The translations under genes were made by a program, and so were the position numbers. The notes below the pieces were generated by a model. The model did no database searches, was not told the DNA's origin, and saw only the letters and a list, made by a program, of their open reading frames with translations. Below, piece by piece: positions 14,901-64,000 of a stretch of 64,000 nucleotides of DNA. The stretch is from Treponema sp. (GTDB lineage Bacteria > Spirochaetota > Spirochaetia > Treponematales > Breznakiellaceae): the NCBI GenBank assembly GCA_031254315.1, contig JAIRUQ010000013.1, positions 1 through 64,000 of the forward strand, read 5' to 3'. Each line of letters begins with the position of its first letter. Within the stretch, counting starts at the first letter, position 1.

Positions 14901-15844
14901 AAACAAATCTGTATGTTGCGCGCGGTCTTATGGCTCCTTACGGGCTGTCAATTGATACGGCGGAAAGCGGTTTTGAAACCATTAATAGAGTAAGAGGCGG
15001 CTCTACATACGACATAATTTTTATGGATCACATGATGCCGGGCATGGACGGCATAGAAGCGGCAAAAATTTTACGCAACATGGGATATAAAAAACCAATT
15101 GTCGCATTAACCGCAAATGCCCTCGCAGGGCAGGCTGAAATCTTTATGAAGAACGGTTTTGATGATTTTATTTCCAAACCGATAGATATTCGCCAGCTTA
15201 ATGCGGTGCTGAACAAAATGATACGCGACAAACAAACGCCGGAAGTTCTTGAAGAAGCCTCCAAACAGCGGCACAATCTGTATGCGACAGGCAAGCACAA
15301 TATAGCCATTGAACCGCAATTAGCCGAGTTCTTTGTACGCGACGCGAAAAAAGCCAAAGATACATTAATCGCCATCAGCGAAAACAACTGCAGAAGAAGC
15401 GATGATATTCCTTCATTCATTATTAATGTCCACGCGATTAAAAGCGCCCTTGCGAATGTCGGGGAAGGCGAACTTTCATCAAAAGCTATGGAACTTGAAC
15501 AGGCAGGACGGGAGCAAAATATCAATTTAATTTTATCTTCTCTGCCCGCCTTCCTTGAGTCTCTGCAAAATGTTATAGATAAACTTAAACCGGACGAAGA
15601 AGACACAGGCGAAGAAGGCAATTCCATCACAAGCGAGGATCAGGCTTTGCTGACGGAAAAACTGCTTGCCATACAGGACGCATGCGCTTCTCTCAATAAA
15701 AAAGCCGCAAAAGACGCGCTTGCCTGCATAAAAGAGAAGAGCTGGCCCAGACCAATCAGGGAAAAACTCAGCGCTCTTGCCGAGCATTTGCTTCACAGCG
15801 AATTTGAAGAAGCCGCTGGAATAGCGAAGGAAATCAATGGATAA
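11924..15844 (+). CDS. Hybrid sensor histidine kinase (Cache, three PAS, HisKA, ATPase, receiver, Hpt)
   Basis: About 1306 residues; ATG 11924 overlaps the previous stop, and ATG 11915 is possible too. Positions below count from 11915. One helix at 10-33 and another at 296-318 enclose a periplasmic dCache-like domain (PEDRPWYKVAVEANG near 138-152). Inside the cell follow three PAS-like units starting near 330, 455 and 585; the second and third are close copies. Then come HisKA (His729 in KMSHEIRTPMNAILG), the ATPase domain (N-box NNLLTNAFKY, DTGQGM, EGTGLGMNI), a receiver (Asp1038 in FMDHMMPGMDG) and an Hpt domain (His1173 in NVHAIKSALANVG). A full phosphorelay is thus encoded, and the overlapping HD-GYP regulator is the likely output. 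Confidence 0.92.
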   Translation: MLKKILTIVTHVQVLVVIIAFSLMVFFSYYFMSDIERKHLLKDVNNAISNVQVYIESDLMEPETALGVFAEVIQSIILHGASPSDVNDYIIQTTDYLLKKERNITYANGIYGCFPVFDGLLISGIGWVPPDDFVPEDRPWYKVAVEANGKVGITEPYLDMVTNTATMTFSRCLFGREGQLLGVICVDVMFDRIMEFAVNAGVSHDSYGILLDSNFRVIAHPVPAYIGKHVDLMNDGDAIREELMQGKEISERPAIDHLENPSVLFARRLNNGWYMGIIAYSKSYYKSVNDIGNILVALGIVFAAILSGILIYMILARKRAEERIQIMTDATPLGITMWDENINLIDLNYEAARVLGIYSKEKYRQIYRETVPEFQEDGRRSTEVHADFISTAFKKGENHTRWVQNSIYGEKITFDASAFRLILRDKPVIAVYCRDIRDLDSAIAKIREADECRETLFDTTPLGSFMIDSSLKILECNQEIVRLLGIPDKQTYIDRFLDFSPEYQPDGKLSSVKRAEKIKAAFEEGYGRFEWQHRKLSGEIIPCEITLFCVMFKGEKMICGYTRDLRELKSMMAKMREADECTQVLFDATPLSSFMIDRSSKVLECNQEVVKLLGLSDKQEYIDNVFKYFPEYQPSGEVSSEYVNKFVDEAFEEGSCRFEWMHQKMDGEQIPTEVTLVRVKFRGEYMVAGYIRDLRELKTMITEMRRAEVAEESSKAKSDFLAKMSHEIRTPMNAILGITEIQLQDDTLPLVTKEALERIYNSGDLLLGIINDILDLSKIESGKFELVQSRFDIASLIYDTVKLNVLRFESKPIDFKLFVSEDMPQVFLGDELRIKQILNNLLTNAFKYTDEGQVELRMSVEPLKNNSDVKLIFRVSDTGQGMTAEQLKRLGDKFSRFNLESNRKTEGTGLGMNITQNLIQLMNGEFHIESTPGMGSTFTVRLPLSCDNSVMVGKELAESLMKLNLKNTAKMRSAQIKQEFMPYGRVLVVDDVETNLYVARGLMAPYGLSIDTAESGFETINRVRGGSTYDIIFMDHMMPGMDGIEAAKILRNMGYKKPIVALTANALAGQAEIFMKNGFDDFISKPIDIRQLNAVLNKMIRDKQTPEVLEEASKQRHNLYATGKHNIAIEPQLAEFFVRDAKKAKDTLIAISENNCRRSDDIPSFIINVHAIKSALANVGEGELSSKAMELEQAGREQNINLILSSLPAFLESLQNVIDKLKPDEEDTGEEGNSITSEDQALLTEKLLAIQDACASLNKKAAKDALACIKEKSWPRPIREKLSALAEHLLHSEFEEAAGIAKEING

Positions 15845-31901: not shown

Positions 31902-32000
31902 AAGAATTTTACCACGGAGGACACAGAGGACACGGAGATTTTATAAGATTTCTGCTTCTTCCTCCGTGTTCTCCGTGCCCTCCGTGGTTTAATATTCTTC
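31902..32000. repeat. R2 palindromic repeat
   Basis: TTTTACCACGGAGGACACAG and TCCGTGCCCTCCGTGGTTTA are the inner arms; GGATATGTCCAGAAAG (from 31886) and CTTTGACATTTCC are the outer arms. The right end contains TTGACA but no good -10 box lies 15-19 bp after it. Confidence 0.8.
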
Positions 32001-45349: not shown

Positions 45350-45478
45350 GGAGGTTGTCCGAAAAGAATATTAAACCACGGAGGACACGGAGGACACGGA
45401 GTTTTGATGTGCTTTTGCCTCTTTCTCCGTGTTCTCCGTGTTCTCCGTGGTGAAATTCTTATTCTTGGACATCTCCAT
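45350..45478. repeat. R2 palindromic repeat, full length
   Basis: Outer arms GGAGGTTGTCCGAAAAGAAT and ATTCTTATTCTTGGACATCT and inner arms AAACCACGGAGGACACGG and TCCGTGTTCTCCGTGGTG are all present, about 128 bp in total. It lies between maf and rpsB, and the rpsB promoter must lie in or above it. Confidence 0.85.
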
Positions 45479-48385: not shown

Positions 48386-49111
48386 TCAAGGCTTAAAACT
48401 CGGCATCAACTCAAGTTTATGAATATTCATTTGGTGAAGCCTATCAATTTTTTCCTTGACCTTTTGATCCTCGCAAATACCTTCGCGGATATACTTGTCA
48501 AGCACATCATAAGTGAAGCCAAGATTTTCTTCATCGCTGAGACCTGAAAGACCGTCTTCAGGTGTTTTTTCGGGGAATTTTGCGGGTAACAGTATTCCGC
48601 CAATCGCTTTTACTTCCGCGCAGGTCAGATGGGACAAGGGGCTAAAGTCCCCTGCCGCGTCGCCGTACTTTGTGGCGTAACCGACCCAGTCTTCGCTGAG
48701 GTTACAGGTATTGGCTACTCGTCCGTTTATAATCGCGGATACGGCGTAGAGCGTTGTCATTCTGATCCTCGCGGGAATATTTACCAGCGCCTGCCTGTTA
48801 GGTGAAAGAGAGCCTTCTTTTATGGAAGACAGAAGAGCGTCTACGCTGTCTTTAATATTGATTTCAGTGTGTTCTATTCCAAGGTGAGCGACAAGTTCAC
48901 GCGAATAACCGATGTCTCCCTGCTGCCCCTGTGGCATCAGTACCCCGTAAACTCTTTTTACCCCAAGTGCCTGTACGCAAAGAGCGGCAACAGTAGAGCT
49001 GTCCTTTCCGCCGCTGATGCCTATCACGGCATGGCAATCGCCTCCGTTTTTTTCAAAATAATCGCGTATCCATTGTACAAGCGCGTCCTTTGTTTTTTCC
49101 GCGTCAAACAT
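48386..49111 (-). CDS. nadE: NAD+ synthase, ammonia-dependent
   Basis: 241 residues, the short form without a glutaminase domain. NadE amidates deamido-NAD+ using ATP. The PP-loop is GISGGKDSSTVAALC; NTCNLSEDWVGYATKYGDAAGDFSP and TPEDGLSGLSDEENLG are further substrate-site motifs, quoted in part. AAAGGAG lies before the ATG. The start overlaps the esterase gene by eight bases, so this housekeeping enzyme is the third gene of a GH43-esterase operon, which is unusual company. Confidence 0.93.
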   Translation of the reverse strand: MFDAEKTKDALVQWIRDYFEKNGGDCHAVIGISGGKDSSTVAALCVQALGVKRVYGVLMPQGQQGDIGYSRELVAHLGIEHTEINIKDSVDALLSSIKEGSLSPNRQALVNIPARIRMTTLYAVSAIINGRVANTCNLSEDWVGYATKYGDAAGDFSPLSHLTCAEVKAIGGILLPAKFPEKTPEDGLSGLSDEENLGFTYDVLDKYIREGICEDQKVKEKIDRLHQMNIHKLELMPSFKP

Positions 49112-51011
49112 TTGTTTCTCCTTTATTTAGTTCTATTTTGAAGGGAAGGGCGGGAAGCCCATCCTTATTAAATAATTGCCTGTCACGCGGGTTATCCGCC
49201 CATGCGTATAAAAGTTTTTTCGCTCCTTTTATAGCGGAAATATCAACAGAAATAACATTTTTCCCTTTAATTTTTGCCGGCAGACGCACCTGTCCATCAT
49301 CTGTGGTAACGCTGACATATACATTTGAATTTGGTTCTGTAGGCTCACATATTTTCAGAGAATAAAGAGGAGCTTTAATGGTTAAACCCATACCGCAATT
49401 TTCAAAATACAATAATATATTATTTTTTTGCAATTGGAAGGATGATAATGTTGGTCCTGGCGATGAATTATTTACGCCGAATAATGTTTTTTCTGCCGTG
49501 AGGAAAAGCCTGTAAGCCACATCCTTTTTGTTAAGAGGATGTAAATCGTTCCATTCACCCAGATCAAGAGCTGTCGCCATTCCGGTGGCGGGGAGAGCCA
49601 ACGCGTCTTTTTGCGCCTCTCTGATAATCGCCCAAGATGACTTTTCGTCGTTATCGGAAGGGAGTTTCCAAATTGGCAGTTGGACAAAGAGGAAAGGCAA
49701 CACTTCGTTTTTATTTTTTTTCCGCCAGTCTTGAATCATCAATTTGAATAACTGCGCGTAATCATTGGGATCGGAATCGTTTGATTCGCCCTGATACCAG
49801 ATAACGCCCTTAAAAGGGAATTTTAACACAGGGGCGATCATCGCGTTGTAGTTTCCCATTGGATGACGTTGAAAGAAAAATTCAGGCGGACGCGCGGAAC
49901 AGATCGCTCCTGTTTTGTATTTCCATACTCCTGATAATTTAACCGATTCGTTATCTGTAAATATACAGAAAGGTTTGCCTTTTGTAACTCCGCCTTCGCC
50001 GTTGTTGCATGTAACTCTGATAACGATGCGATTTTTTCCCTTTACAATTATTTCGGCGGGGATGTATTTGCGCGGCGGATAACGGTAGCCTGTGTTTCCT
50101 GTCTCAACGCCGTTTACATAAACCGTGTCGGCATCTGTAATAGTGCCAAGCCAGAGTTTTGAATTTTTAGAAGCGAAGGAAGATGACGCTTTAAATTCTT
50201 TCGCGAGCCAAATTACGCCGCAAAAATTTGAAAGCCCCGTTGACGCAAAATCATCCGGTAATTTTATATCATTCCAGCTTGAAATATCTGTCTGCGGATT
50301 TTGCCAAGATTCAGCAAGCCCTGTGTCATTAGTTTTTAATTCTTCTTCCCATTTTTGAATAGCGGAATTTGTTGTATTTGTAATTTCTTCGCGCTTGGCG
50401 GTATCGGCGTACTGTCTGCCTTCGGCAATTTTTCCGGGAAACGAAGAAAGAGCGTCCTCGCTCATCCACGCTTCAACAGGAGTGCCGCCCCATGCCGTAT
50501 TTACAAGCCCAATAGGGATGCGGTACTTTTCGTAGAGTTTTTTCGCGAAAAACCACGCAGTCCCTGAAAACTCATGGAGTGTTTCAGCCGACGCTCTAAG
50601 CCAACAGCCGCCTGATAATTCTTCGCGTGGAGCGGAAAAATCCCATTCTTGATTAACCTTAAATTGCCTAATTAAAGGGAAATCTTTTAACTTCCATTCT
50701 TCGGGAAAATCGTCCTGAAGGCGGTTCATCGCCATCTCCATATTGCTCTGCCCTGAACATAGCCAAACATCTCCTATGTAAATGTCCGCTATTTTGACGG
50801 AAGAATTATCGCAGACAATTTCCATCTCGAAGGGACCGCCTGCTTTCGCGGGCTCAAGGGTTACGAGCCATTTTCCGTCAACATTTTGCGAGTTGTATGT
50901 TTTACCCAAAAAGGAGACGGTTGTCTCCTTGGATGACCAAACCGGAAAGTTCGCTTCCCTTTGAATTATCATCCCAGAGCTTATAAATGGCGATAGATTC
51001 AGATCATTCAT
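49104..51011 (-). CDS. Sialate-O-acetylesterase-like carbohydrate esterase
   Basis: 635 residues without a signal peptide. The catalytic Ser86 lies in DVWLCSGQSNMEMAM, the SGNH-type nucleophile block; GVIWYQGESN and the late DLGEWNDLHPLNKKDVAYR (His and Asp of the triad) complete the active site. A galactose-binding-like insert (about 260-370) interrupts the esterase domain, as in many family members. Enzymes of this group deacetylate sialic acid or acetylated xylan; next to GH43 and xylanases, xylo-oligosaccharide deacetylation in the cytosol is the likely task. It overlaps both neighbouring genes by eight bases. Confidence 0.87.
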   Translation of the reverse strand: MNDLNLSPFISSGMIIQREANFPVWSSKETTVSFLGKTYNSQNVDGKWLVTLEPAKAGGPFEMEIVCDNSSVKIADIYIGDVWLCSGQSNMEMAMNRLQDDFPEEWKLKDFPLIRQFKVNQEWDFSAPREELSGGCWLRASAETLHEFSGTAWFFAKKLYEKYRIPIGLVNTAWGGTPVEAWMSEDALSSFPGKIAEGRQYADTAKREEITNTTNSAIQKWEEELKTNDTGLAESWQNPQTDISSWNDIKLPDDFASTGLSNFCGVIWLAKEFKASSSFASKNSKLWLGTITDADTVYVNGVETGNTGYRYPPRKYIPAEIIVKGKNRIVIRVTCNNGEGGVTKGKPFCIFTDNESVKLSGVWKYKTGAICSARPPEFFFQRHPMGNYNAMIAPVLKFPFKGVIWYQGESNDSDPNDYAQLFKLMIQDWRKKNKNEVLPFLFVQLPIWKLPSDNDEKSSWAIIREAQKDALALPATGMATALDLGEWNDLHPLNKKDVAYRLFLTAEKTLFGVNNSSPGPTLSSFQLQKNNILLYFENCGMGLTIKAPLYSLKICEPTEPNSNVYVSVTTDDGQVRLPAKIKGKNVISVDISAIKGAKKLLYAWADNPRDRQLFNKDGLPALPFKIELNKGETNV

Positions 51012-52599
51012 TCAGTCCCCTGTATTCAGCCCAAAAAACATCGGCGAAATTTCCGGTATTTGTGCCGTTTGCGCTCGCGAAAACTCCCGCCAATGTTCCG
51101 GTAAAGCCGCCCGCGTATTCTGTGCTTAGAATACGGGCGTCAATGCCGTCCGCGAACCGTATAAGTGAATATTGATCTTTTCCGTAAAAAAAAGCAAGTT
51201 TCATTTCTTCGCAGATAACGGATAAAACAAGAGGGGAGGGGAGTGAAGGAACTTCCGTAGAGGCGATTATTTCATCAGAGGAGCCTGCCGCTTTTATGAG
51301 CCGCAAAGAAACGCCGCTGGAAGAAGAGAATATTTCAAAACGGTAATTCCAGTCCTCGTTTTGGAGTAAAACTATTCCCGCTGTTTCCATGTTTGTTTTT
51401 GGCAGAAATTCCAAAGATACGGAAAACGCCCAGTTTTTATGCCTAAGCCTTCTTCCGGCAAAAGCGAGGTGCTCTTTTTCGCGTATTGTCTGCGGTTTTG
51501 TAAAGAGCCTTAACACGCCTGCTCTTTCTTTTAAGCTGAATGCGCGTAACTTTTCATCGGCTGGCATTCTTAAAGTCAGCCAGTGAATAGGAAGTTTTTC
51601 GCTAAAATGGTCGCAGGACGGCTCTAAACTCCACTGCGGAGATTTCATGAGTTCACTTTCTATATTGACCGTTATCTGATCTTCAACAAGCCCCGATTTT
51701 GTAGCGACGCAAAGCCACTCGTCTTCCCAATAGACCGGAACCATAAAAGTTTCACGCCCAAGGGGGCATACGCCGTCAAATTGACGGGAGGCAAGATGTA
51801 TCATCCACCAGTTCCCCTTACCGTCATCAACAATGTCGGCATGCCCAACATTGATAATTTCCGCGTTTCTTCCAAGATGTCTGTGCGTCAGAATAGGGTT
51901 ACTTTTCTTCCCTTCCCATTTACCGTGTATATCCTTCGCCCTTGCTACACATACCGCGTGATCAATGCCGGTTCCCCCTTCGGCGTGTAAAAGATAATAC
52001 CAGCCGTTAATTTTATAAATATGCGGTCCTTCGGGCCAGATAACGTCACGTAACGCACCGCGCCAAATGCCGATGTTTTCACCTATCAGGGGATTTTTTC
52101 CTTTTTCTAAAAGAGAAATATCGATTTCACGAATGTATATTTCATAATTACCCGGATATGCTTCTCCTTCGGGAGCGGGGTGAGTGCCGCAGTACCAAAC
52201 CTTACCGTTGTCATCAAAAAAAATCGAAGGGTCTATTCCGTCCGCGCCGGTAAGCCAGACAGGGTCCGACCAGGGACCGGCAGGAGTTTTAGCGCTAATG
52301 ATAAAATTCCCTCCTCCACTGATTAAAGTGCAAAGAATATAAAATATTCCCTTATTTTCACGGATAGTCGGCGCAAACAATCCCTGTGAAATCTGATTCC
52401 CGTCAGAACAAAGCTGACCGGGACGGTCAATCGCGTTTCCTATTTGTTTCCAGTGAATAAGGTCGGTACTGTGAAAAATTGGAATCCCGGGAAAATAGGC
52501 AAATGTCGAAGTAACAAGATAGAAATCATTGCCTGCCCTGCAAATTGAAGGGTCGGGGTAAAAACCGCTTAATATCGGATTACGGTAACTTAATTCCAT
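51004..52599 (-). CDS. GH43 beta-xylosidase/arabinofuranosidase
   Basis: 531 residues, no signal peptide, so cytosolic. The five-bladed propeller holds the catalytic base Asp16 (GFYPDPSICR), the pKa-setting Asp123 (ADGIDPSIFFDD) and the acid Glu190 (WPEGPHIY). The C-terminal 200 residues form the beta-sandwich typical of XynB-like enzymes. It should release xylose or arabinose from imported oligomers. No ribosome site is seen before the ATG. The gene begins an operon with the esterase and nadE and is divergent from the cytosolic GH5 gene. Confidence 0.92.
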   Translation of the reverse strand: MELSYRNPILSGFYPDPSICRAGNDFYLVTSTFAYFPGIPIFHSTDLIHWKQIGNAIDRPGQLCSDGNQISQGLFAPTIRENKGIFYILCTLISGGGNFIISAKTPAGPWSDPVWLTGADGIDPSIFFDDNGKVWYCGTHPAPEGEAYPGNYEIYIREIDISLLEKGKNPLIGENIGIWRGALRDVIWPEGPHIYKINGWYYLLHAEGGTGIDHAVCVARAKDIHGKWEGKKSNPILTHRHLGRNAEIINVGHADIVDDGKGNWWMIHLASRQFDGVCPLGRETFMVPVYWEDEWLCVATKSGLVEDQITVNIESELMKSPQWSLEPSCDHFSEKLPIHWLTLRMPADEKLRAFSLKERAGVLRLFTKPQTIREKEHLAFAGRRLRHKNWAFSVSLEFLPKTNMETAGIVLLQNEDWNYRFEIFSSSSGVSLRLIKAAGSSDEIIASTEVPSLPSPLVLSVICEEMKLAFFYGKDQYSLIRFADGIDARILSTEYAGGFTGTLAGVFASANGTNTGNFADVFWAEYRGLNE

Positions 52600-52662: not shown

Positions 52663-53691
52663 ATGCCGACGGTAATTCCATTTTCAAAAGGGGTGAATTT
52701 TTCAAAATGGTTTGAATCTCGCACCTTTAATGATATTGTCTTCGATAAATTTACAGAGCAGGATTTTGCCGATCTAAAAAGCCTTGGCGGCGATGTTATC
52801 CGCCTTCCGGTTGCTTTTCATAACTTTACCCTTGGCGACAAAAAGCATACCCTTGAACCAGAATTGTTAAAATACCTCGACACGGTTTTGGATTGGGCTG
52901 AAAAATATCAAATCTATCTTATTGTCGATAACCATTCTTTTCATCCTGTAAACCCAACAGATGTTAATATTGATAAAATACTCATTCCTGTTTGGGAACA
53001 AGTAGCGAAGCGTTATAAGAACAGGAGTAGTTATTTAATATATGAAATCTTGAATGAGCCGCATGGTATCAGCGATGAGCGGTGGGGTAAGATTCAGCTT
53101 GCGGCGATAAAAGCGATAAGAAAGATCGATAAAGAGCATATAATCATTGTTGGCGGCATTAATTATAATTCAATCGAAAAATTGTTTAGTATTCCCGTTT
53201 ATAAGGAAAAAAATCTGCTTTATACATTTCACTTTTATGACCCTCATATTTTTACACATCAGGGCGCGACATGGAATAAGCCCTCACTCGCGCCTCTTAG
53301 CGGTCTTCCGTTTCCCGGGGCAAAAGAAAGTATTCCGCCGATTCATGAAACTTTTAAGGGAACATGGGTAGAGGTTTCCCTTAACAACTACGAGCATGAT
53401 TCAAAGTTGTCTGTTCTATCGGCGACCTTGGATAAGGTGTCCTCTTTTTCTAAAGAGCGAAATGCTTCTGTTTTTTGCGGAGAGTTTGGAGTGTTTATGA
53501 ATCAAAGCCCGGCAGAAGATCGTATTAAATGGTATAAATTTATATGCGAAGAATTTGCCAAACGGAATATTACATGGACATGCTGGGATTATTTTGGCGG
53601 TTTTGGTTTGTTTAATAAAGCACAGGGAAGAGCAAAATTTCCTGAAGAGCTAAACACTGAACTTGTTAAAACAATTGGTTTTAAGTGTTAA
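52663..53691 (+). CDS. GH5 glycoside hydrolase without signal peptide
   Basis: 342 residues. The GH5 (cellulase A) barrel shows VIRLPVAFHNF, LIVDNHSF, the acid/base Glu132 in YEILNEPHG, and the nucleophile Glu274 in VFCGEFGVF; HFYDPHIFTHQGATW lies between. With no signal peptide it should act in the cytosol, probably on short beta-glucan, mannan or xyloglucan-type oligomers; substrate cannot be told from the sequence. GGGAGG precedes the ATG. The gene at 53880 encodes a close paralogue with a lipoprotein signal. Confidence 0.92.
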   Translation: MPTVIPFSKGVNFSKWFESRTFNDIVFDKFTEQDFADLKSLGGDVIRLPVAFHNFTLGDKKHTLEPELLKYLDTVLDWAEKYQIYLIVDNHSFHPVNPTDVNIDKILIPVWEQVAKRYKNRSSYLIYEILNEPHGISDERWGKIQLAAIKAIRKIDKEHIIIVGGINYNSIEKLFSIPVYKEKNLLYTFHFYDPHIFTHQGATWNKPSLAPLSGLPFPGAKESIPPIHETFKGTWVEVSLNNYEHDSKLSVLSATLDKVSSFSKERNASVFCGEFGVFMNQSPAEDRIKWYKFICEEFAKRNITWTCWDYFGGFGLFNKAQGRAKFPEELNTELVKTIGFKC

Positions 53692-53741: not shown

Positions 53742-53850
53742 TAGGAATTAAGAATTTTACCACGGAGGACACGGAGTTCACGGAGAAAGAAGCAAAAACA
53801 CATCAGAACGCCGTGTCCTCCGTGGTTTATTCTTCTTCTTGGATAGTCCA
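53742..53850. repeat. R2 palindromic repeat, full length
   Basis: Outer arms AATGTCTAGGAATTAAGAAT and TATTCTTCTTCTTGGATAGT and inner arms TTTTACCACGGAGGACACGG and GCCGTGTCCTCCGTGGTT are all visible. It separates the two GH5 paralogues. Confidence 0.85.
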
Positions 53851-53879: not shown

Positions 53880-55565
53880 ATGAAGAATAAATTGTTTTTA
53901 ATTATTGCAGTGGTTTTTTTTGCATGTAATAGTACGGAATATAAAACGGAGGATTATACGGAACAAGATGTACAGGCGGCTGTCATTTCAGCGCCATTTT
54001 CAAAGGGAGTGAATTTTTCTCAGTGGTTTGAATCGTTTTCTGCGGGAAGCATTCCGTTTACAAGGTATACAGAGCAGGATTTTAAAGATGTAAAAAGCCT
54101 TGGAGTTGATGTGATCAGACTGCCAATCAGAATGCACAGTATGACAAGCGGTGCGCCTAATTATACGCTTGATACGCTGTTCCTGCAATTTCTTGATCAA
54201 GCGGTAAGCTGGGCTGAAAAATACGAAATTTACATCATCATAGACAACCATTCTTTTGATCCTGTACGTGCTACAAGTAATGATATTGATAGAGTTCTCA
54301 TTCCTGTATGGGAACAAATTGCACGGCGTTATCGAAACCGAAGTGATTATGTAATTTATGAGATTTTAAATGAACCCCACGGCATTGATGATACCCTCTG
54401 GGGAAATATTCAGGGGAGAACAGTAGAAGCAATCCGCCGTATAGATCAAAAACATTTTATTATAGTAGGCGGAACCGATTACAATTCAATCCGTAAACTT
54501 TTAGCCCTGCCTGTATATGCCGATTCCAAACTGATATATACTTTTCACTTTTATGATCCGCATGTCTTTACGCATCAGGGAGCGACATGGGGCGAGCCGT
54601 CTATGGGAAACCTTTCCGGCGTACCGTTCCCTTATGATCCAAAAAGAATGCCAAGAGTACCCGCTAATTTAATTGGCACTTGGCTTGAAAACGCTATTAA
54701 TGGTTATAGAATAGCCGCATCCCCTACCGCGCTTTATAACTCTCTTGACAGAGTTGTAAATTTTTCCAGAGAACGTAATGTCCCTGTATTTTGCGGAGAG
54801 TTTGGCGTGTTTATGATACAAAGCCCGCCAGCTGATCGCGTAAAATGGTATGAAGTTGTGTCTAACGCTCTTGATAAGCGCAATATTTCGCGGGCAAGCT
54901 GGGATTATTACGGCGGGTTTGGCGTATTTAATTCAGGAAACGGAAATTTTAATTACGACTTAAATACAGAAGTGGTACGCGCAATGGGTTTTACTCCTCC
55001 CGCGCAAATTCAGCGCACGGAAGAACAGTTTAATACAGGTTTTGTTATATTTGATGATTATCCAAACCGTAATTATGTAAGCGCGGGCTCCTGGGGCGAT
55101 AATGTAGATTTCAGTCTTTATGATACAAATCAGGCGCGGGGACAATTCGCTATCCGCTGGGCAAATGCGTCTCAATACAACGCTTTTTATTTTTCTTTTG
55201 ATGCTTCAAAAATGGATTTTCGCTACCTTGCGGAAAACGGCTATTATTTGGAATTCATGGCAAGGGTAGACCGTCCTGCGAACTTCGATGTACGTTTCTT
55301 GAATACTGAAAGTTCATCGTCTACTCCGTGGCGAATACGTTATACGATAGATCAAAGTATGATTCCTGCGGACAGAAATTGGCATACTATTCGCATACCT
55401 CTTTCGCAGATGACAGAACACGGAGCATGGATTAGTTCAACACAAAGGTGGGTTGAGCCAAAAGGTGAGTTTTCATGGAGATATATAGAACGGCTTGAAT
55501 TTGTCGCCGAACACTCAGCATTGCCGGGTACGATTTGGTTTGATGAGATAAGGATCACTCAATAG
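53880..55565 (+). CDS. GH5 lipoprotein with C-terminal carbohydrate-binding-like domain
   Basis: 561 residues. The signal peptide ends VFFAC, so Cys16 should be lipidated. The barrel (about 37-372) parallels the upstream GH5 almost motif for motif: VIRLPIRMHS, IDNHSF, acid/base Glu165 in YEILNEPHG and nucleophile Glu307 in VFCGEFGVF. The C-terminal 175 residues form a jelly-roll-like domain (FDDYPNRNYVSAGSWGDNVD to GTIWFDEIRIT) resembling CBM11-type or related binding modules. A surface-bound endo-enzyme is the expected role, with the cytosolic paralogue acting on its products. Confidence 0.92.
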   Translation: MKNKLFLIIAVVFFACNSTEYKTEDYTEQDVQAAVISAPFSKGVNFSQWFESFSAGSIPFTRYTEQDFKDVKSLGVDVIRLPIRMHSMTSGAPNYTLDTLFLQFLDQAVSWAEKYEIYIIIDNHSFDPVRATSNDIDRVLIPVWEQIARRYRNRSDYVIYEILNEPHGIDDTLWGNIQGRTVEAIRRIDQKHFIIVGGTDYNSIRKLLALPVYADSKLIYTFHFYDPHVFTHQGATWGEPSMGNLSGVPFPYDPKRMPRVPANLIGTWLENAINGYRIAASPTALYNSLDRVVNFSRERNVPVFCGEFGVFMIQSPPADRVKWYEVVSNALDKRNISRASWDYYGGFGVFNSGNGNFNYDLNTEVVRAMGFTPPAQIQRTEEQFNTGFVIFDDYPNRNYVSAGSWGDNVDFSLYDTNQARGQFAIRWANASQYNAFYFSFDASKMDFRYLAENGYYLEFMARVDRPANFDVRFLNTESSSSTPWRIRYTIDQSMIPADRNWHTIRIPLSQMTEHGAWISSTQRWVEPKGEFSWRYIERLEFVAEHSALPGTIWFDEIRITQ

Positions 55566-56240
55566 TTATGTGTTGATATTGTTATTCGACCATTCTATCG
55601 CCTGTTGTCTTAACTCCTGCGAACTTGCGCAGTGGAGTTTTAATTTCATGTGCTCTTTGTGGGTGTCAATAGTTTTTGTGCTTAAATTAAGTCTGGACGC
55701 AATCTCAATTGTACCGAACCCTTTCCCGATAAGTGAAAATACTTGAAGTTCGCGGTTAGAAAGTTTTTGTATAGATAGAGAGCCGTCTTTTGAACCTTGC
55801 ATATTTCCACCGGTCATCGCCTGAAAAATTCGCTCTCTTTCGTTTTCACTTAAATAAACTTTTCCGTCCAGAATAGTGAAGATTGCTTCCATAATGTCAT
55901 CGGGAGGGGAAGTCTTCATAAGAAAACCGCGTGCGCCAAGGCGAAGAAGCCGCTCCGAATAAAAGCGTTCGTCATGAATGGATAACGCCAGTATTACAAT
56001 TTCAGGATTAAGGTCTTTTAGTTTTGAAATTATATCCATGCCGTTCTCTTTACCAAGACGGATTTCTACAATCGCGAGTTTTGGCTCTTCTTTTTCTGCA
56101 ATTGTCAGCGCTTCGTCCGCGTTTGAAGTTGTTCCGACAACATTGAATTTATGATAACTGTTAAGCAGGGTAGAAAGCCCAAGGCTGAACACCGGATGAT
56201 TATCGACAATTAACACTTTTATATTTCCGCTTCTTGCCAT
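55566..56240 (-). CDS. NarL/LuxR-type response regulator with Glu at the phosphorylation site
   Basis: 224 residues. The receiver (1-120) starts KVLIVDNHPVFSLGL and ends with the conserved Lys of FLMKTSP. The usual phosphorylated Asp is replaced by Glu59 (LAIVEIRLGKENGMD), and the second acidic pocket residue is Asn14 (VDNHP). The C-terminal LuxR helix-turn-helix is intact: LSNRELQVFSLIGKGFGTIEIASRLNLSTKTIDTHKEH, quoted in parts of fewer residues, with LSTKTIDTH as recognition helix. No kinase lies nearby. AGGA precedes the ATG. It sits within the xylan locus and may be its regulator, working without phosphorylation. Confidence 0.88.
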   Translation of the reverse strand: MARSGNIKVLIVDNHPVFSLGLSTLLNSYHKFNVVGTTSNADEALTIAEKEEPKLAIVEIRLGKENGMDIISKLKDLNPEIVILALSIHDERFYSERLLRLGARGFLMKTSPPDDIMEAIFTILDGKVYLSENERERIFQAMTGGNMQGSKDGSLSIQKLSNRELQVFSLIGKGFGTIEIASRLNLSTKTIDTHKEHMKLKLHCASSQELRQQAIEWSNNNINT

Positions 56241-56326
56241 GGTAAATTCCTAACATATTTTCCGTATATTGGGTATAGTACAATTTACCTATGTTAAATC
56301 GAGATATTTTTTATAATGATTGATAT

Positions 56327-57343
56327 ATGAATAAAAGTTTAAAAGATGCATTTGGTAATTCGTGCAAAATAGGAGCCGCTGTAAACCGCTATTTGCTTGA
56401 ACAAAAAGAAGCGGTTGATATAATCCGTAGGCATTTTAACTCTATAACGCCTGAAAATTCCATGAAATTTGGTCCCATTCATCCTAAGGAAGACCAATTT
56501 AACTGGGAAGAGAGTGATTTTATCGCGGATTTCGCACGGGAAAACAACATTGAAATGCGCGGTCACGTAATGGTCTGGCATAATCAAAATCCGCCGTGGC
56601 TGTTTCTTGAAGGAAATGAAAGCGCTTCAAAAAGTATATTGTTTAAGCGGCTTGAGGATCATATCGCATCTGTTACCAAGCGTTACGGTGACATTGTTGC
56701 TTCATGGGATGTGTTAAATGAAGCGATTGATGTTGACAACGGCGATGAAAACGGATTTCGTCTCAGTGATTGGTATAAAATCTGCGGAAAGGAAGTTTAT
56801 GAGTTTGCTTTTAAGCGTATGAGAGAAGCATGTCCAAAAGTAAAACTTGTATACAATGATTATAATAATGAATCAGGTCCAAAGATGGATGCTTCGATTC
56901 GTTTTCTTTCAGGGCTTTTGGACGCGGGCATTCCTGTTGACAGGGTGGGTATTCAGGGACACTGGTATTACAATTTCCCCGATGAAAAAACTTTGCGTAA
57001 CGCGATAGAACGTTATTCATCACTTGGGCTTGAAATAGAATTGACAGAGGTTGATATTTCTGTTTATCAATGGAGCGAGGCAAGAGAAAAAGCCCAATTT
57101 TTTTCTACAGCGCCTGAAGACAGGAAAGAACAGCAATCTCAGCGTTACAGAGAAATATTTGCCGCCGCTTGCGAATATCCATGCGTCAAAAATATTACAA
57201 CATGGGGCATTGCGGATAACTATACATGGCTTGACAATTTCCCCGTAAAGGAAAGAAAAAACTGGCCATTGTTGTTTGACGAACAGTACAGGGAAAAACC
57301 TGTAGTCGCGGACATTATAAGTGCCGCTGAAAAAAACTCTTAA
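56327..57343 (+). CDS. GH10 xylanase without signal peptide
   Basis: 338 residues. GH10 barrel motifs are ENSMKFGPIHP, GHVMVWHNQNPPW, acid/base Glu132 in WDVLNEAID and nucleophile Glu241 in IELTEVDISVY. There is no signal peptide, matching the intracellular GH10 xylanases that trim imported aldouronic or xylo-oligosaccharides. A -10-like TATAAT lies just upstream and no good ribosome site is seen. The deacetylase gene begins one base after its stop, so both are co-transcribed. Confidence 0.94.
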   Translation: MNKSLKDAFGNSCKIGAAVNRYLLEQKEAVDIIRRHFNSITPENSMKFGPIHPKEDQFNWEESDFIADFARENNIEMRGHVMVWHNQNPPWLFLEGNESASKSILFKRLEDHIASVTKRYGDIVASWDVLNEAIDVDNGDENGFRLSDWYKICGKEVYEFAFKRMREACPKVKLVYNDYNNESGPKMDASIRFLSGLLDAGIPVDRVGIQGHWYYNFPDEKTLRNAIERYSSLGLEIELTEVDISVYQWSEAREKAQFFSTAPEDRKEQQSQRYREIFAAACEYPCVKNITTWGIADNYTWLDNFPVKERKNWPLLFDEQYREKPVVADIISAAEKNS

Positions 57344-57970
57344 ATGAAATATATCGCTTTAACTTTTGATGACGGTCCTTGCGATGTTAGCGAAAATGGC
57401 GGCACTGCCGCTATGCTTTCGGTTTTAGAAAAACTTAACGTAAAAGTAACTTTTTTTGTAATTGGGCAGAATGTTCGGGACAACAATAAAGCCACGAAAG
57501 CTATTTTTGAGGCGGGACATGAACTCGCTAATCACAGCGACGGTTATGCACCTTTGGGCAATGCTCAAAAGAACGAAATATCAGCGAGCCTTGAATCGGC
57601 TAATGCCGCTATTAAAGAAATTACAGGAAAAAGTCCGTCTTTGTTTCGCGCTCCGAATTTGCAATACGGCAGTGAATTGTTTAATGTCTGTAAAGAAAAA
57701 GGAATGTCTTTAATTGGCGGAAGCGCTCATAATGACTGGGCTGTTGACGCTGAATCAATCTTGAAGAGCGTTTTGAATGACCCCAAAGACGGGGATATTA
57801 TTGTTCTGCATGAAAATAACACTTCCAAGGGGAATACAATGGCTGTTTTACCGCAAATAGTTGGGGGTTTAAGGGAAAGAGGTTTTGAAATACTAACAGT
57901 GAGCCGACTCGCTAAGCTAAAAGGAATAGTTTTAGAGCCGGGAATTAGTTATAATTCTTTTAATAATTAG
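57344..57970 (+). CDS. CE4 polysaccharide deacetylase with altered metal site
   Basis: 208 residues, no signal peptide. NodB-homology motifs are TFDDGP (Asp9, Asp10), motif 2 around His64 (ELANHSDGY), motif 3 FRAPN (for the usual RPPYG) and motif 5 IIVLHEN with His156. In canonical enzymes motif 2 is H-(S/T)-x-x-x-H, and both His bind the metal; here the second is Tyr68. The enzyme may bind metal differently or be inactive. Acetyl-xylo-oligosaccharide or chitooligosaccharide removal of acetyl groups is possible. It directly follows the cytosolic GH10 gene. Confidence 0.85.
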   Translation: MKYIALTFDDGPCDVSENGGTAAMLSVLEKLNVKVTFFVIGQNVRDNNKATKAIFEAGHELANHSDGYAPLGNAQKNEISASLESANAAIKEITGKSPSLFRAPNLQYGSELFNVCKEKGMSLIGGSAHNDWAVDAESILKSVLNDPKDGDIIVLHENNTSKGNTMAVLPQIVGGLRERGFEILTVSRLAKLKGIVLEPGISYNSFNN

Positions 57971-58027: not shown

Positions 58028-59176
58028 TTAACGTTGATAATTCTCAAGAGTTTCAATTATTTTGTAGTAAGAGTCTTTTGCAAAACTTCTGGCGTTACCA
58101 TGAAATATTAGGGGAAGCGCTGATTTACGCCAGCTTTGCTCGTCATAGACTCCCCAGAATGTTACACGGTCAATGATGTCGGAATAGTCAAGGAACAACT
58201 TAAAATACTCGCCGTATAATTGTGCGGCTCTCGCTTTTCCGGCTTCTGTCGGGGGATTTCTGTTTGGAGAGTATTCACCCCATGATTGGGAGAGCACATC
58301 AAGTTCGCTGATGGCTATTCTTACGCCAAGGGGTTTAAAAAGATCAAGAGAGGCTTTAACACTTGCCGCTGATACGCCGGTATTATGATGGCTCTGCATT
58401 CCAATTCCTTCGATAAGGAGGCGGTTATCGTATTGCGGATCGATTAGCCAATCATTATTAACATCGCGTACCATATCACGAACCATTGTCGCTTTTCCAA
58501 CGTTATCTAAGCTATAATCATTGTAGTACAATATCGCATCTGAATCGGCTAAACGGGCGGCTTTGAATCCTTCATATACAAAATCAGCTCCTATCTTTTT
58601 AAACCAGGGGTTTTCTGATCGCATTGATGTTTCCCAGTTTGCTGAAGCGCTGACGCCATCGGGGAACACTTCATTTAGTACATCCCATGAATAAATTTTC
58701 CCCTTAAATTCAGTTACTACCCTTGTAATATATTCATTCATATATTCAAGAGCAGTTTCTTTTGATGTATTACCGTCAGTGCCTAAGTCTATCTGCCACT
58801 TAGGAATCTGGCTATGCCAAAGCAGAGTGTGCCCGACAACTTTCATGCCGGATGCTCTGGCGGCATTAACCATGTTATTTGCCGTATCAAAGCTATATTT
58901 TCCGCGAGAGGGGTTAAGATAGGAAGGTTTCATATGGTTTTCAGCGGTAAGCACAGCATAGTGGCGTGTAATGCGATCATTTGATATCATTCCGCCGCCG
59001 ACATCGTTTGGGCTAAAAATATTGCCAATCATAAAATAAGATGCGAATTGATCCTTCATTGGCTCAAGATTCATCATGTTGGAAGGGTCAGTGTCTTCTA
59101 TCAAACAAGTAGTGAAGACAAATAATACCGCTATACTCAGCGGCAGAAGCCTTGTTTTAAAATAGTTCTTTTTCAT
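58028..59176 (-). CDS. GH10 xylanase lipoprotein (operon gene 4)
   Basis: 382 residues. The signal ends VFTTC, with Cys24 the likely anchor. GH10 motifs: LTAENHMKPS, GHTLLWHSQIPKW, acid/base Glu169 in WDVLNEVFPDG and nucleophile Glu291 in AISELDVLSQ. The N-terminal region after the lipid Cys has a short linker and no binding module. Its ATG overlaps the GH30 stop codon by four bases. It is the last gene of the operon that starts at 63011. Confidence 0.94.
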   Translation of the reverse strand: MKKNYFKTRLLPLSIAVLFVFTTCLIEDTDPSNMMNLEPMKDQFASYFMIGNIFSPNDVGGGMISNDRITRHYAVLTAENHMKPSYLNPSRGKYSFDTANNMVNAARASGMKVVGHTLLWHSQIPKWQIDLGTDGNTSKETALEYMNEYITRVVTEFKGKIYSWDVLNEVFPDGVSASANWETSMRSENPWFKKIGADFVYEGFKAARLADSDAILYYNDYSLDNVGKATMVRDMVRDVNNDWLIDPQYDNRLLIEGIGMQSHHNTGVSAASVKASLDLFKPLGVRIAISELDVLSQSWGEYSPNRNPPTEAGKARAAQLYGEYFKLFLDYSDIIDRVTFWGVYDEQSWRKSALPLIFHGNARSFAKDSYYKIIETLENYQR

Positions 59177-60717
59177 TTTACTCTCCCATAAAAAGTTGTT
59201 ACTGAAAACGGAGCGAGATTCACAATGGCAGAATTACCGGATATCCTCTGTCTGCCAACTGATTTAAGTCTCTCTTTCTCAGATGTCCTAAAAATATCAA
59301 GCTGATCAAATTCAGCCCCTTCTAAATCTATAATAATAGAAGAAGGTGTCATTCTTTCATTAATCATAACGATTGCGATTTCATTTGTCTGCGGATTTCT
59401 GTACGCGCTTGAGTATACTCCTGTGTGCGGAGATGTACTACTTTCAATTCTGCGCCACCCGGGACGGATAAAGCGCGAATATTGTCCCATAACATAGAGA
59501 CGGTCAGAGACAACTAATTCGTCTTCATCTACATAAACCAATGAGCTTGGTAAACTTGCTTGGTTGCCTGTCCAAAGCCACCAGTAAAGAAAAGCGTTTG
59601 TCTGCGCTAAAGTCATGTCCCAGTGAATCATTCTCGCGTAATAAAGAGCGTTAAGAATCCCCGCTCCCGCAGGTATCTGCCCTGACGCTCCCGATACTTC
59701 CGACTGCCAAAAACGTTTTCCCGAAGCGACAATTTCAGGAAATGCCCTTGAACCTGCTCTCGATGAAGAATCGCTTGCCCCGTTGTACTGGTGCAGTCCT
59801 ATATGTGATATAACTCTCTGCGATTCAGGATCGTCAAGTGAAGGTTTGATCATATCATTAAAGTTTATGTTAAAATTTTCAAACTCCGGCATCATTATTC
59901 CGATGCCTCCCTCGCCTACAGCAACGCCCTTCATCGGGAACCTCTGTCCTATTACCTTTATAAAATCGCGCAGATCATTTCCGTTCCAGTAGGCGGATTC
60001 ATATTGAACTTTCCAGTTTGGTTCGTTCTGGACGGAAAGTATCGCAAGGGGAGCGCCCATCATTGCCTCAAAGTTTTTTACATAATCTGCAAGTAGATCG
60101 GCGTAATCGTTGTACTTGTCTCTGCGAAGTCTTCCCCATAAATCAGGTCTTGACCAATCCATCGTATAATTTTGCCTTACATTTACTCCTGTAACATCTT
60201 CTTTCCATTGCGTTACGCGATTATTGGGCGGAGTCCAGGGGGTACTCATTACTGTTAAGTTTTCAGGTCCATTCGCTCCAAGGGCTTTTATTTGTTGTAT
60301 AAGATTTTTTGTGCTTGAAATGTCCCAACTGTTCCAATTTAAGTTAAAAGTTTTTATACCATCTTGATTTTCAGTATAGCTGTAAGTATTGTCGCTGTTT
60401 CTTACCATAAAACCGTCGTTAAGGCTTGGATCATTGTCACCTTCAAGGCGTTCACGGAACGGAATACGGTTGCGTAAAATTGTAAAACCAACTCCATCCG
60501 TTTTTGAAAAGAGAAGTCTTACAAGGTCAAGCGCTGTCTGTTGATCACGGGGAAGTCTTGTCCAAGCGTTTGAGCCGCCAAAGCCGTCTATTACCTGACG
60601 GTATTCGTTGTAGTTTACTTTGACGGTTCCTTCAGGTGGACCGCCAAAAGAACCTGAGCCGCATGTTGAAAATAAAATGACAGCTACTACAACGGTGATA
60701 AAAGTTATTTTTTTCAT
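59173..60717 (-). CDS. GH30 glucuronoxylanase-like lipoprotein (operon gene 3)
   Basis: 514 residues. The signal ends LFSTC (Cys19). The barrel shows QVIDGFGGSNAW near the N-terminus, acid/base Glu232 in SVQNEPNW and nucleophile Glu340 in FWQSEVSGASG; the C-terminal side domain of beta type is complete (SAIVNLAPFSVTTFYG). The family includes GH30_8 xylanases that need a glucuronic acid branch, which would complement the GH10 enzymes around it; the subfamily is inferred. It overlaps the genes on both sides by four bases, so all are translated together. Confidence 0.9.
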   Translation of the reverse strand: MKKITFITVVVAVILFSTCGSGSFGGPPEGTVKVNYNEYRQVIDGFGGSNAWTRLPRDQQTALDLVRLLFSKTDGVGFTILRNRIPFRERLEGDNDPSLNDGFMVRNSDNTYSYTENQDGIKTFNLNWNSWDISSTKNLIQQIKALGANGPENLTVMSTPWTPPNNRVTQWKEDVTGVNVRQNYTMDWSRPDLWGRLRRDKYNDYADLLADYVKNFEAMMGAPLAILSVQNEPNWKVQYESAYWNGNDLRDFIKVIGQRFPMKGVAVGEGGIGIMMPEFENFNINFNDMIKPSLDDPESQRVISHIGLHQYNGASDSSSRAGSRAFPEIVASGKRFWQSEVSGASGQIPAGAGILNALYYARMIHWDMTLAQTNAFLYWWLWTGNQASLPSSLVYVDEDELVVSDRLYVMGQYSRFIRPGWRRIESSTSPHTGVYSSAYRNPQTNEIAIVMINERMTPSSIIIDLEGAEFDQLDIFRTSEKERLKSVGRQRISGNSAIVNLAPFSVTTFYGRVK

Positions 60718-61835
60718 AAGCGCAGTGTTCTGTTAGGATCGACAACGGCGAAAAACGCCTGTTTGGGATTTAAGTCTCCGTCAAAAAGGCACGGGTTTCC
60801 CATTGATTTCCAGCTACTTTCATCGTCCATGCCCCACATTGTTACCCTTGTTATGTGATCTTTGTATTCCTTAAAAAGATTGAAAAGCTGGGCATAGACA
60901 AGAGCCTGCTGACGGGCTTCCGTATCAAGTAAACGCGAATCTTTTCTTGTTCCAAAACTGGAGCCCCCGACGCTTCTTACTTCTACATCAAGCTCGCTTA
61001 TATCAACCTTTAACCCTAATCCTGCGAATCTTTCTATAGTATTGCGGACATCGTCAATCCTTACTGTAAGACCATAATGCGCTTGCAGTCCAATTGCGTC
61101 TATAAGGTTTCTGCTATTGCCTTCCGCCTTATAACGGTTGTTGATTTCTTCGATCATAGCCGCAGTTACCTGCGCTTTTCTTTGGTTGTTCAAATTGTAA
61201 TCATTGTAATAAAGCATTACATCGGGGTCTGCCGCTCTCGCCGTTCTAAAGGCAAGTTCAACATAATCAGCGCCTAACGCCTTGAACCAGCCGCTTTCTG
61301 TGCGAAGCTGGTTCCTCCAATCCTCGTAATTTTCCCCCGGATTTATCCGCTCTTTTACAGCTTCATTTACGACATCCCATGAAAAAATTCTGCCCTTATA
61401 ATGACTAAGAACGGTGTTAATGTGATTTATCATATTTTGTCTTACCTGTGCGGCAGTTCCTTCCGTCATCCATGAAGGGGTCTGATTATGCCAGACAAGA
61501 GTATGACCGTGTACCAATATATCGTTAGCCGCCATTTCATTTAGCATATTGTCGGCTTGCGCCCAGTTGTACTGTCCTCCTCTTATTGCCGGAGCAAGAG
61601 CGTCGGGTTTCATCTGGTTCTCACATGTTACGGTATTGTAGTGTGTTGTAAGCAGATCAAGATATTCACCTCTCAAATAACTTGGGGTAATTATATTCCC
61701 TATAAGGAAATAATCCTTATAAATTGTTTTAAGCGGCTGTGTTTGTCTTGTGTTAGAAGAGCCTGATGTTCCGCAATTTGTTACGTTAAACACAAGCAAA
61801 ATAGGTAATAAAAACACAAAGATTTTAATTTTCAT
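60714..61835 (-). CDS. GH10 xylanase lipoprotein (operon gene 2)
   Basis: 373 residues. The signal peptide ends NVTNC; Asn before Cys21 is acceptable only for a loose spirochaetal lipobox. GH10 motifs: VTCENQMKPDALAP, GHTLVWHNQTPSW, acid/base Glu158 in WDVVNEAV and nucleophile Glu281 in DISELDVEV. The closing WGMDDESSWKSMGNPCLFDG is shared with the gene upstream at 61848, showing that these are close paralogues. It begins 12 bp after that gene and overlaps the GH30 start. Confidence 0.94.
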   Translation of the reverse strand: MKIKIFVFLLPILLVFNVTNCGTSGSSNTRQTQPLKTIYKDYFLIGNIITPSYLRGEYLDLLTTHYNTVTCENQMKPDALAPAIRGGQYNWAQADNMLNEMAANDILVHGHTLVWHNQTPSWMTEGTAAQVRQNMINHINTVLSHYKGRIFSWDVVNEAVKERINPGENYEDWRNQLRTESGWFKALGADYVELAFRTARAADPDVMLYYNDYNLNNQRKAQVTAAMIEEINNRYKAEGNSRNLIDAIGLQAHYGLTVRIDDVRNTIERFAGLGLKVDISELDVEVRSVGGSSFGTRKDSRLLDTEARQQALVYAQLFNLFKEYKDHITRVTMWGMDDESSWKSMGNPCLFDGDLNPKQAFFAVVDPNRTLRL

Positions 61836-61847
61836 ATCTAAAACTCC

Positions 61848-63011
61848 TTAATTATATGCAGGATCGTTTGGATTGGAAACAGCCCAAAACGCTGGTTTGG
61901 CTTTTAAACTTCCGCCAAAAAGGCACGGGTTCCCACGCGATTTCCAACTGTTTCTGTCGTCAATGCCCCACATGGTTACGCGTGTTATCTGATCTGGAAA
62001 TTCTTCTTCTAAATCCAGTAAAAGCTTGAAAAGTCTCGCATAAGCGCGAGCTTGATCGTTCATTGTCGCCTCTGACATTCTGGTATTTGATCCGGTTCCG
62101 TAATTACCGTTTATATCTTTATCTTCTATATCAAGTTCGCTTATGTCTAATCTTATTCCCAAGCTAAGGAAACGTCTCATGTTTGTTTTTATTAGGTTAA
62201 AATGGGGAGTACCATCCCTATTCCCAAATATCCACCATGAACCATAATGCCCCTGCATTCCCATGCCTTCAATAAGTTTTCTGCTATTATTAGTATTATC
62301 AGGATCATTTTCCCACTGATTATTGATGTCCTCTATCATCTTATATACCGCCATAGGCTTATTGACACCGTTCATTCCATAATCATTGTAATATAAAATC
62401 GCATCAGGGTCGGCTTGGCGCGCTGTCTTAAAAGCCAAATAAATATAACCCGAGCCTAATTGTTTATACCAGTTGCTTTCTGTGCGCAGGCAGTCTTTCC
62501 AATTTGTTGCATTTGATAAGTTATCGGGAAACGCTTCATTTACAACATCCCAAGCATATACCTTTCCCTTAAAATGGGAAACTACTTCAGTAATGTATTT
62601 TTTAAGGTTACTTTCTGCATTACTGCTGTATAGCCATGAAGGTGTCATATCATGCCAAACAAGCGTATGACCGTGAATTTTTGTAATTCCATTATTGTTC
62701 AATTTTTTTATCATGTTATCTGCATCTGTCCATGTATAATTCCAAGAATTGCCTCGCAAAAGGAAACTTGGTTTCATATCGTTTTCGCATGTTACAGTAT
62801 TGTAATGGGTCGTAAGATATTTAAAATAATCACCGGACATATATGTGGAATTAATAATATTGCCAATCAAGAATTTGCCTTCATATATTTTCCACAATTT
62901 TTGATCCTCAGTAACTGCATTAATATCATAATCGGGAAGATCATCGAAAGATTCCAAACAGCTTCCGACTAAAAGAAAAACAGCAAACAGCGCAAATGCG
63001 GCTTTTTTCAT
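61848..63011 (-). CDS. GH10 xylanase lipoprotein (operon gene 1)
   Basis: 387 residues from ATG 63011, which has GGTGAGG upstream; a longer frame from 63038 lacks this and would spoil the signal peptide. The signal ends LVGSC (Cys18). GH10 motifs: VTCENDMKPSFL, GHTLVWHDMTPSW, acid/base Glu159 in WDVVNEAFPD and nucleophile Glu292 in DISELDIEDKD. It is the first gene of the four-gene GH10-GH10-GH30-GH10 operon and is divergent from the GH2 gene; the 97-bp gap holds a palindrome. Confidence 0.94.
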   Translation of the reverse strand: MKKAAFALFAVFLLVGSCLESFDDLPDYDINAVTEDQKLWKIYEGKFLIGNIINSTYMSGDYFKYLTTHYNTVTCENDMKPSFLLRGNSWNYTWTDADNMIKKLNNNGITKIHGHTLVWHDMTPSWLYSSNAESNLKKYITEVVSHFKGKVYAWDVVNEAFPDNLSNATNWKDCLRTESNWYKQLGSGYIYLAFKTARQADPDAILYYNDYGMNGVNKPMAVYKMIEDINNQWENDPDNTNNSRKLIEGMGMQGHYGSWWIFGNRDGTPHFNLIKTNMRRFLSLGIRLDISELDIEDKDINGNYGTGSNTRMSEATMNDQARAYARLFKLLLDLEEEFPDQITRVTMWGIDDRNSWKSRGNPCLFGGSLKAKPAFWAVSNPNDPAYN

Positions 63012-63063
63012 ATCAAACCTCACCTTGGGTAATTTCATTTAATATATCACAACTTGGACTATT

Positions 63064-63108: not shown

Positions 63109-64000
63109 TTGAAAGACAATTCGGCGGTTTTATTCAATAAAGACTGGAAATTTCTCTTGGGAGACGTAAAAAACGCCAAAGAAGTTAAATTTTGCGACCG
63201 TACATGGAAAAATGTTGAGCTACCCCATGATTGGGTTATCTCTCAGCCTTTTTCTATGGAAGAAAAGGAAGGATGGACGGCGCAAAATATGCAGGGTTTC
63301 TTTGCGTGGGAGGGGATTTGCTGGTATCGTAAGGAATTTTCACTTGAAAATATTAAAGGAAAGGCGGTTTTTATCTATTTTGGCGGCGCTTACCGCAACA
63401 GTACGGTTTATGTAAACGGAAAAGAAGCCGGAAAACGCGCAAATGGTTATTCCGGCTTTGAACTTGATATTACTGCTCTTGTTAATGAAGGAAAAAATTT
63501 GCTCACGGTAAGGCTGGATAATGGGTGTGAACCGCCTGATCGCTGGTATTCCGGCTCCGGTCTTTATCGCTATGTCTATCTTAAAATCGTTTCGTTTCCC
63601 TTCATTAAAACATGGGGCGTTCATGTTGAGCCTGAATTGGCGAAAAATAAAAAACAGGCGGTTATTACAATTTCTACTACAATTATTACAAAGGAAAAAA
63701 GTTCAGGCGTTGTTCGGGTAAAAATAATCGCACCGGATGGAAGCCTCGCAAATGAAGATACCGCGCCTTTTAATTTAAACGGAAAAAATGAAATTACCGT
63801 AAAGCAGTCAATGATTGTTAAGAGTCCTGCGTTGTGGTCGGCTGGGGGTCCTAATTTGTATCGCGCTGTTGTACAACTTGAGACTGACGAAAAAGCGCGA
63901 AGTAATACGGTTGAAGTTCAATTTGGAGTCCGTTCTATTGAAATTGCGTATAACAAAGGGATGAGCGTCAATGGGGAAAAAGTTAAACTAAAAGGAGTCT
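63109..64000 (+). CDS. GH2 glycoside hydrolase, N-terminal part (cut by window end)
   Basis: The frame starts at TTG 63109, with GGAGGGAG just upstream, and is open to the right edge (297 codons). The N-terminal sugar-binding domain of GH2 is visible: NKDWKFLLGD, VELPHDWVISQPF, WYRKEFSL, YVNGKEAGKRANGYSGFELDI in part, and DRWYSGSGLYRYVYL. The immunoglobulin-like domain follows (VHVEPELAKNKKQAVITIST) and the beginning of the barrel, with GVRSIEI and NGEKVKLKGV. No signal peptide. Beta-galactosidase, beta-mannosidase or beta-xylosidase-type activity cannot be distinguished, as the catalytic residues lie beyond the edge. Confidence 0.88.
   Translation, partial: MKDNSAVLFNKDWKFLLGDVKNAKEVKFCDRTWKNVELPHDWVISQPFSMEEKEGWTAQNMQGFFAWEGICWYRKEFSLENIKGKAVFIYFGGAYRNSTVYVNGKEAGKRANGYSGFELDITALVNEGKNLLTVRLDNGCEPPDRWYSGSGLYRYVYLKIVSFPFIKTWGVHVEPELAKNKKQAVITISTTIITKEKSSGVVRVKIIAPDGSLANEDTAPFNLNGKNEITVKQSMIVKSPALWSAGGPNLYRAVVQLETDEKARSNTVEVQFGVRSIEIAYNKGMSVNGEKVKLKGV

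Follow-up and report, generated by a model that had tools for sequence, protein, structure and literature searches.

The origin of receiver domains that lack the phospho-accepting aspartate, and the possible mimicry of phosphorylation by a natural Asp-to-Glu change, have usually been approached by engineered mutants, which gave conflicting answers. ChxR, which is of the OmpR/PhoB type, and SsrB, a member of the NarL family, are two response regulators in which a glutamate at the acceptor position, either natural or introduced, has been considered. In aspartate-less receivers (ALRs), Glu is the commonest replacement of the phospho-Asp (26 %) and is sometimes activating, and a single Asp-to-Glu change is often insufficient (PMC4395418). 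In SsrB, the Asp-to-Glu exchange abolishes DNA binding in cells (PMC6557628). Our literature search yielded nothing direct on two-component control of xylan use in Treponema.

Here, we analysed a response regulator with a Glu acceptor residue from a xylan locus of Treponema sp., located in a stretch of 64,000 nucleotides (the window), and compared it with its homologues in other spirochaetes, with respect to the acceptor pocket, the gene neighbourhood, the presence of a cognate kinase, and a putative operator. An earlier note on the same DNA had drawn attention to this gene, and its claims are taken up below where our results bear on them.

Results

The regulator (Table 1) comprises a Pfam Response_reg domain (PF00072) followed by a GerE domain (PF00196), both matched above their cut-offs, and thereby exhibits the domain order of the NarL/FixJ family, i.e., a receiver preceding a GerE/LuxR helix-turn-helix (HTH), whereas its score misses the cut-off of each NCBIfam equivalog among the matches listed. 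Its nearest solved relative is NarL (PDB 1a04, E 5e-24). In the alignment of both proteins, Glu59 falls onto the phospho-Asp (LLDLNM in NarL, IVEIRL in the regulator), and Asp13-Asn14 onto the Asp-Asp pair of NarL, with Asn14 taking the place of the second Mg-binding Asp. Hence, the protein departs from the family pattern of an acceptor Asp plus two Mg-binding acids at precisely the two residues (Glu59 and Asn14) that the earlier note had pointed out. Lys109 is in register with the conserved Lys of NarL, and Ser87 (T/S position) and Phe106 (Y/F position) are ordinary residues. A receiver fold with a replaced acceptor Asp is what defines an ALR, and this combination is found in the five orthologues carrying Glu59 as well as in a homologue from another genus (G166).

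Table 1 Features of the window discussed in the text
Feature	Position	Strand	Remarks
Response regulator, NarL/FixJ-type	55566..56240	-	224 aa + stop; receiver residues 9-120, GerE/LuxR HTH 159-210
Glu59 codon GAA (acceptor-position substitution)	56064..56066	-	computed from start codon at 56240
Asn14 codon AAT (acidic pair, second residue)	56199..56201	-	computed from start codon at 56240
18-bp element ATAGGTAAATTGTACTAT, conserved imperfect dyad	56275..56292	-	between the divergent regulator and GH10 genes; putative promoter box or operator for autoregulation
SASA-type carbohydrate esterase	49104..51011	-	
GH43 beta-xylosidase-type gene	51004..52599	-	GH43 + GH43_C2
GH5 cellulase/endoglycanase-like gene	52663..53691	+	conserved locus; 64-68% to orthologues
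GH5 gene	53880..55565	+	convergent with regulator
GH10 xylanase	56327..57343	+	338 aa; divergent from regulator; candidate direct target
Polysaccharide deacetylase (CE4-like)	57344..57970	+	directly 3' of GH10 gene
Four genes of conserved xylan locus	58028..63038	-	GH10 58028-59176, GH30 59173-60717, GH10 60714-61835, GH10 61848-63038
GH2 gene	63109..64000	+	start only inside window

As previously described for this locus, the regulator is situated between a GH5 and a GH10 gene, and is an orphan: none of the surrounding genes of the locus encodes a kinase. Past the window end, the same contig continues downstream of the GH2 gene with a mannonate-dehydratase-like gene and GH67. In each of the five genomes of the genus that carry the Glu type, GH10, GH30, and GH43 genes flank the regulator, which places it within the xylan locus, and this conserved neighbourhood suggests that it controls xylan genes. 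Xylan use by members of the genus does not require it, as GH67 is found in 15 of 40 genomes, the regulator in eight, and both together in only six.

Two further features of the window were noted. A dispersed repeat, CCACGGAGGACACGGAG, has 16 matches (0.01 expected), several of them as inverted pairs, at 8119, 9581, 21948, 31912-31987, 45376-45450, 48344, and 53760-53825, one copy lying between the two GH5 genes; in appearance, it resembles REP or MITE elements. Furthermore, a response regulator and a large hybrid histidine kinase are encoded in succession at 10884-15844, the former ending in an HD-type hydrolase domain that resembles HD-GYP on visual inspection. These genes are 40 kb away from the regulator of the xylan locus and apparently unrelated to it.

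Orthologues were searched in 40 genomes of the genus and in GTDB species genomes. Four were found in the same xylan-locus context, all of them in Treponema metagenome-assembled genomes (MAGs), which, from their isolate names, appear to be termite-gut bins. According to the earlier note, Asp in orthologues of this context would have indicated a local mutation or sequencing error; instead, all four carry Glu. The window does stem from a draft assembly of 127 contigs, but since four separately recorded MAGs agree on Glu in the same gene context, and encode it by both GAA and GAG in spite of near-saturated synonymous change, an erroneous or merely local origin of Glu59 can practically be dismissed. 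Residue 14 is less fixed than Glu59, being N, N, N, D, and D among the five orthologues. Some 50 further homologues from spirochaetes have Asp at the acceptor position, among them a paralogue elsewhere in the genome of the window (G000 C16, L029:9796-10473), which is 59 % identical to the regulator, lacks an adjacent kinase, and adjoins a sugar ABC transporter as well as a deacetylase gene, the latter divergent from it and homologous to the deacetylase gene of Table 1. A maximum-likelihood tree computed from 75 homologues recovers the five Glu proteins as monophyletic (100/97), whereas the Glu of G166, whose nearest relative G170 has Asp, needs a separate change. Thus, Asp-to-Glu replacement occurred twice independently.

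Might the receiver simply be decaying since the loss of its kinase, with Glu as a neutral or near-neutral change in a signal-blind protein whose HTH by itself may confer weak activity? The receiver indeed evolves faster in the Glu clade: the ratio of receiver to HTH differences is 2.4 there vs 1.2-1.7 in Asp groups (bootstrap P of 0.006, 0.037, and 0.14 against three comparison groups, the third not being significant), and the corresponding dN ratio is 2.9 vs 1.45-1.84. Likewise, Asp14 has been lost in three of five Glu orthologues, and changes are present in the otherwise conserved SMHDE segment. However, receiver dN/dS stays at ~0.1-0.3 where measurable (dS being often saturated), and therefore the receiver is still under purifying selection. 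Moreover, all five species share Glu59 in spite of GAA/GAG turnover and near-saturated dS, Lys109 and Ser87 persist, and Glu replaced Asp on two separate occasions. Taken together, we regard decay as an unlikely, though not far-fetched, explanation.

In other genera, 28 loci (L059:736-2973 on the minus strand and 27 others) encode, adjacent to an Asp-type regulator or in its vicinity, a protein of ~700 residues with the Pfam domains Peripla_BP_3, HisKA_3, and HATPase_c, that is, a LacI/PBP1 ligand domain joined to a kinase core. Invariant positions occur in both the ligand and the kinase parts of the ten members compared, and no hydrophobic 19-mer of transmembrane strength was detected. The protein remains far below all named-family cut-offs, and no named family fits. 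In spirochaetes, its loci lie near GH10/GH43/GH67 genes and LplABC-type sugar transporters. Adjacency and co-occurrence make this kinase the obvious candidate for the cognate partner of the Asp-type regulators. To judge from a limited open-access literature search, in which no published account of a LacI/PBP1-domain histidine kinase was found, such soluble LacI-domain histidine kinases of spirochaetes, linked to hemicellulose use, are undescribed.

A survey of 200 genomes of the family detected the regulator in 41 and the kinase in 34. Outside the genus of the window, the kinase accompanies the regulator in 32 of 33 genomes, the sole exception being G166, i.e., the second Glu case, whose assembly is 63 % complete, such that its kinase could be missing from the assembly alone. 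Inside the genus, a single-query search found the kinase in none of the eight regulator-bearing genomes, and profile searches returned no full-length match in these eight or in any of the six Glu-type genomes. Partial matches in related genomes were discarded, as they were kinase-core-only or PBP-domain-only pieces; that of G010 was part of a protein of 1110 aa with an N-terminal PBP1 domain and a C-terminal AraC HTH (L212:2033-5365), encoded next to a sugar permease gene, which is another route of LacI-domain sugar sensing within the genus. The genome of the window has 52 HATPase_c matches, yet no PBP1-domain kinase, and thus lacks the cognate kinase of a complete two-component system.

The acceptor is Asp in all 32 kinase-bearing genomes, and deviations of the acidic pair from D/E-D are confined to kinase-less ones (Asn14 in three Glu proteins, Ser14 in G010). 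For kinase absence vs Glu, the Fisher value of 1.9e-5 overstates the association: the genomes are not independent, and behind them stand about two Glu events and one or two losses of the kinase. Furthermore, Asp is kept in the kinase-less genomes G010, G028, and G037, and in the paralogue of the window genome; hence, kinase loss permits Glu but does not dictate it. The tree, together with these intermediate states, suggests that kinase loss preceded the Asp-to-Glu change. The kinase-less Asp-type regulator of G010 (L066:9989-10669) has the acidic pair Glu-Ser, is without the 18-bp element described below, and is possibly an intermediate state.

The intergenic region shared by the regulator and the divergent GH10 gene contains the 18-bp element of Table 1, located 34 bp from both start codons. 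With four mismatches allowed, the 18-bp box ATAGGKRAATTGTACTAT precedes Glu- and Asp-type regulator genes alike, in 24 of 58 spirochaete homologues (0.7 expected). It always has one orientation and lies ~52 bp before the start codon, once a number of start annotations are moved. When ten genomes were searched with two mismatches allowed, nearly every match was the promoter of the regulator itself. We propose that the regulator binds the element, which may be an autoregulatory operator; the fixed spacing also fits a core-promoter box. Within the locus, it sits between the regulator and GH10 and is absent at the other GH operons. A role as general operator of a xylan regulon was rejected, since genome-wide matches are almost confined to regulator genes, and the third match in the genome of the window (C30) is not beside xylan genes. 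We also abandoned the palindromes at 52610 and 63064, which the earlier note had put forward as targets: arms of equal or greater length appeared in 41 and 59 of 100 shuffles, respectively, and neither palindrome is obviously kept in orthologous intergenic regions.

A copy of the element with two mismatches is also present upstream of the Asp-type paralogue in the genome of the window. The coexistence of both regulator types with matching elements in one genome, along with the failure of Asp-to-Glu SsrB to bind DNA in cells (PMC6557628), would fit a regulator that is locked off by Glu and acts as a competitor or heterodimer partner of the paralogue. No close Asp-type paralogue was found in the four other Glu-type genomes at the threshold used, and therefore this cannot be the general role of the protein; we consider a locked-off competitor or partner quite improbable.

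Discussion

Our data can be combined into the following model. The ancestor would have been a pair consisting of a soluble histidine kinase, sensing sugars by its LacI/PBP1 domain, and a NarL-type response regulator, in spirochaetes often encoded beside xylan hydrolase and sugar ABC-transporter genes. The kinase gene was presumably lost in the Treponema genus of the window, and a fixed Glu would then have replaced the acceptor Asp in a single lineage comprising five species. Some of these species would also have lost the second Mg-binding acid, with the DNA-binding domain and the upstream 18-bp element remaining in place. The present-day regulator would be independent of phosphorylation; its amount, autoregulation, or a ligand or partner would determine how active it is, and it would act at least at the promoter shared with the divergent GH10 xylanase gene. 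Overall, we think it probable that kinase loss followed by Glu substitution left a phosphorylation-independent regulator of its own promoter and of the divergent GH10 gene.

With regard to activity, the earlier note had offered two possibilities, which fare differently. The case for control by means other than phosphorylation has become much stronger, given that the genome no longer contains the ancestral cognate kinase. Constant activity through mimicry by Glu has become less convincing in light of the lost DNA binding in SsrB (PMC6557628) and of the often insufficient effect of a single Asp-to-Glu change (PMC4395418), and we propose more generally that the regulator is probably active without phosphate. 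One could also imagine control by a different sensor through a modification or ligand at the altered pocket, e.g., modification of the Glu or binding of a metabolite. Such possibilities are given in the ALR review (PMC4395418), and the pocket Lys and Ser are retained; however, a conserved candidate partner gene was not found in the locus, and our analysis gave no positive evidence for this kind of control, which we therefore rate as highly improbable.

Returning to the model of kinase loss and Glu substitution, its wider form is more tentative. Possibly, a two-component xylan switch was turned, at least twice independently, by kinase loss and subsequent fixation of Glu into a one-component regulator that is constitutive or controlled by dosage and has retained the ancestral operator. 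The outcome would be a natural series of three forms, namely Asp with the kinase, Asp without it, and Glu without it. Related species offer these three natural states, together with a candidate operator, for testing.

Like NarL, UhpA, RcsB, and SsrB, the regulator belongs by domain order and fold to the NarL/FixJ family, from which it is set apart by Glu59 and by the absence of a cognate kinase in its genome. The ancestral kinase is reminiscent of LacI-family sensors in its LacI/RbsR-like ligand domain, and of UhpB/NarX-type kinases in its UhpB/MctS-like HisKA_3 core, but differs from all of them as a soluble fusion without HTH or membrane segments. The regulator resembles Glu-subclass ALRs such as ChxR of Chlamydia, likewise an orphan DNA-binding regulator with Glu in place of the phospho-Asp and a kept Lys, and its Asn14 recalls the frequent loss of the second acidic residue in ALRs (PMC4395418). 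As a protein, it adds a new example to the Glu class of aspartate-less receivers. Unlike ChxR, with its OmpR/PhoB-type architecture, it is of the NarL/GerE type, and unlike known ALRs, its Asp-type ancestor, the kinase of that ancestor, and the loss of this kinase are traceable in relatives. What is new here is this traceable history, along with two independent Glu substitutions and a conserved operator candidate.
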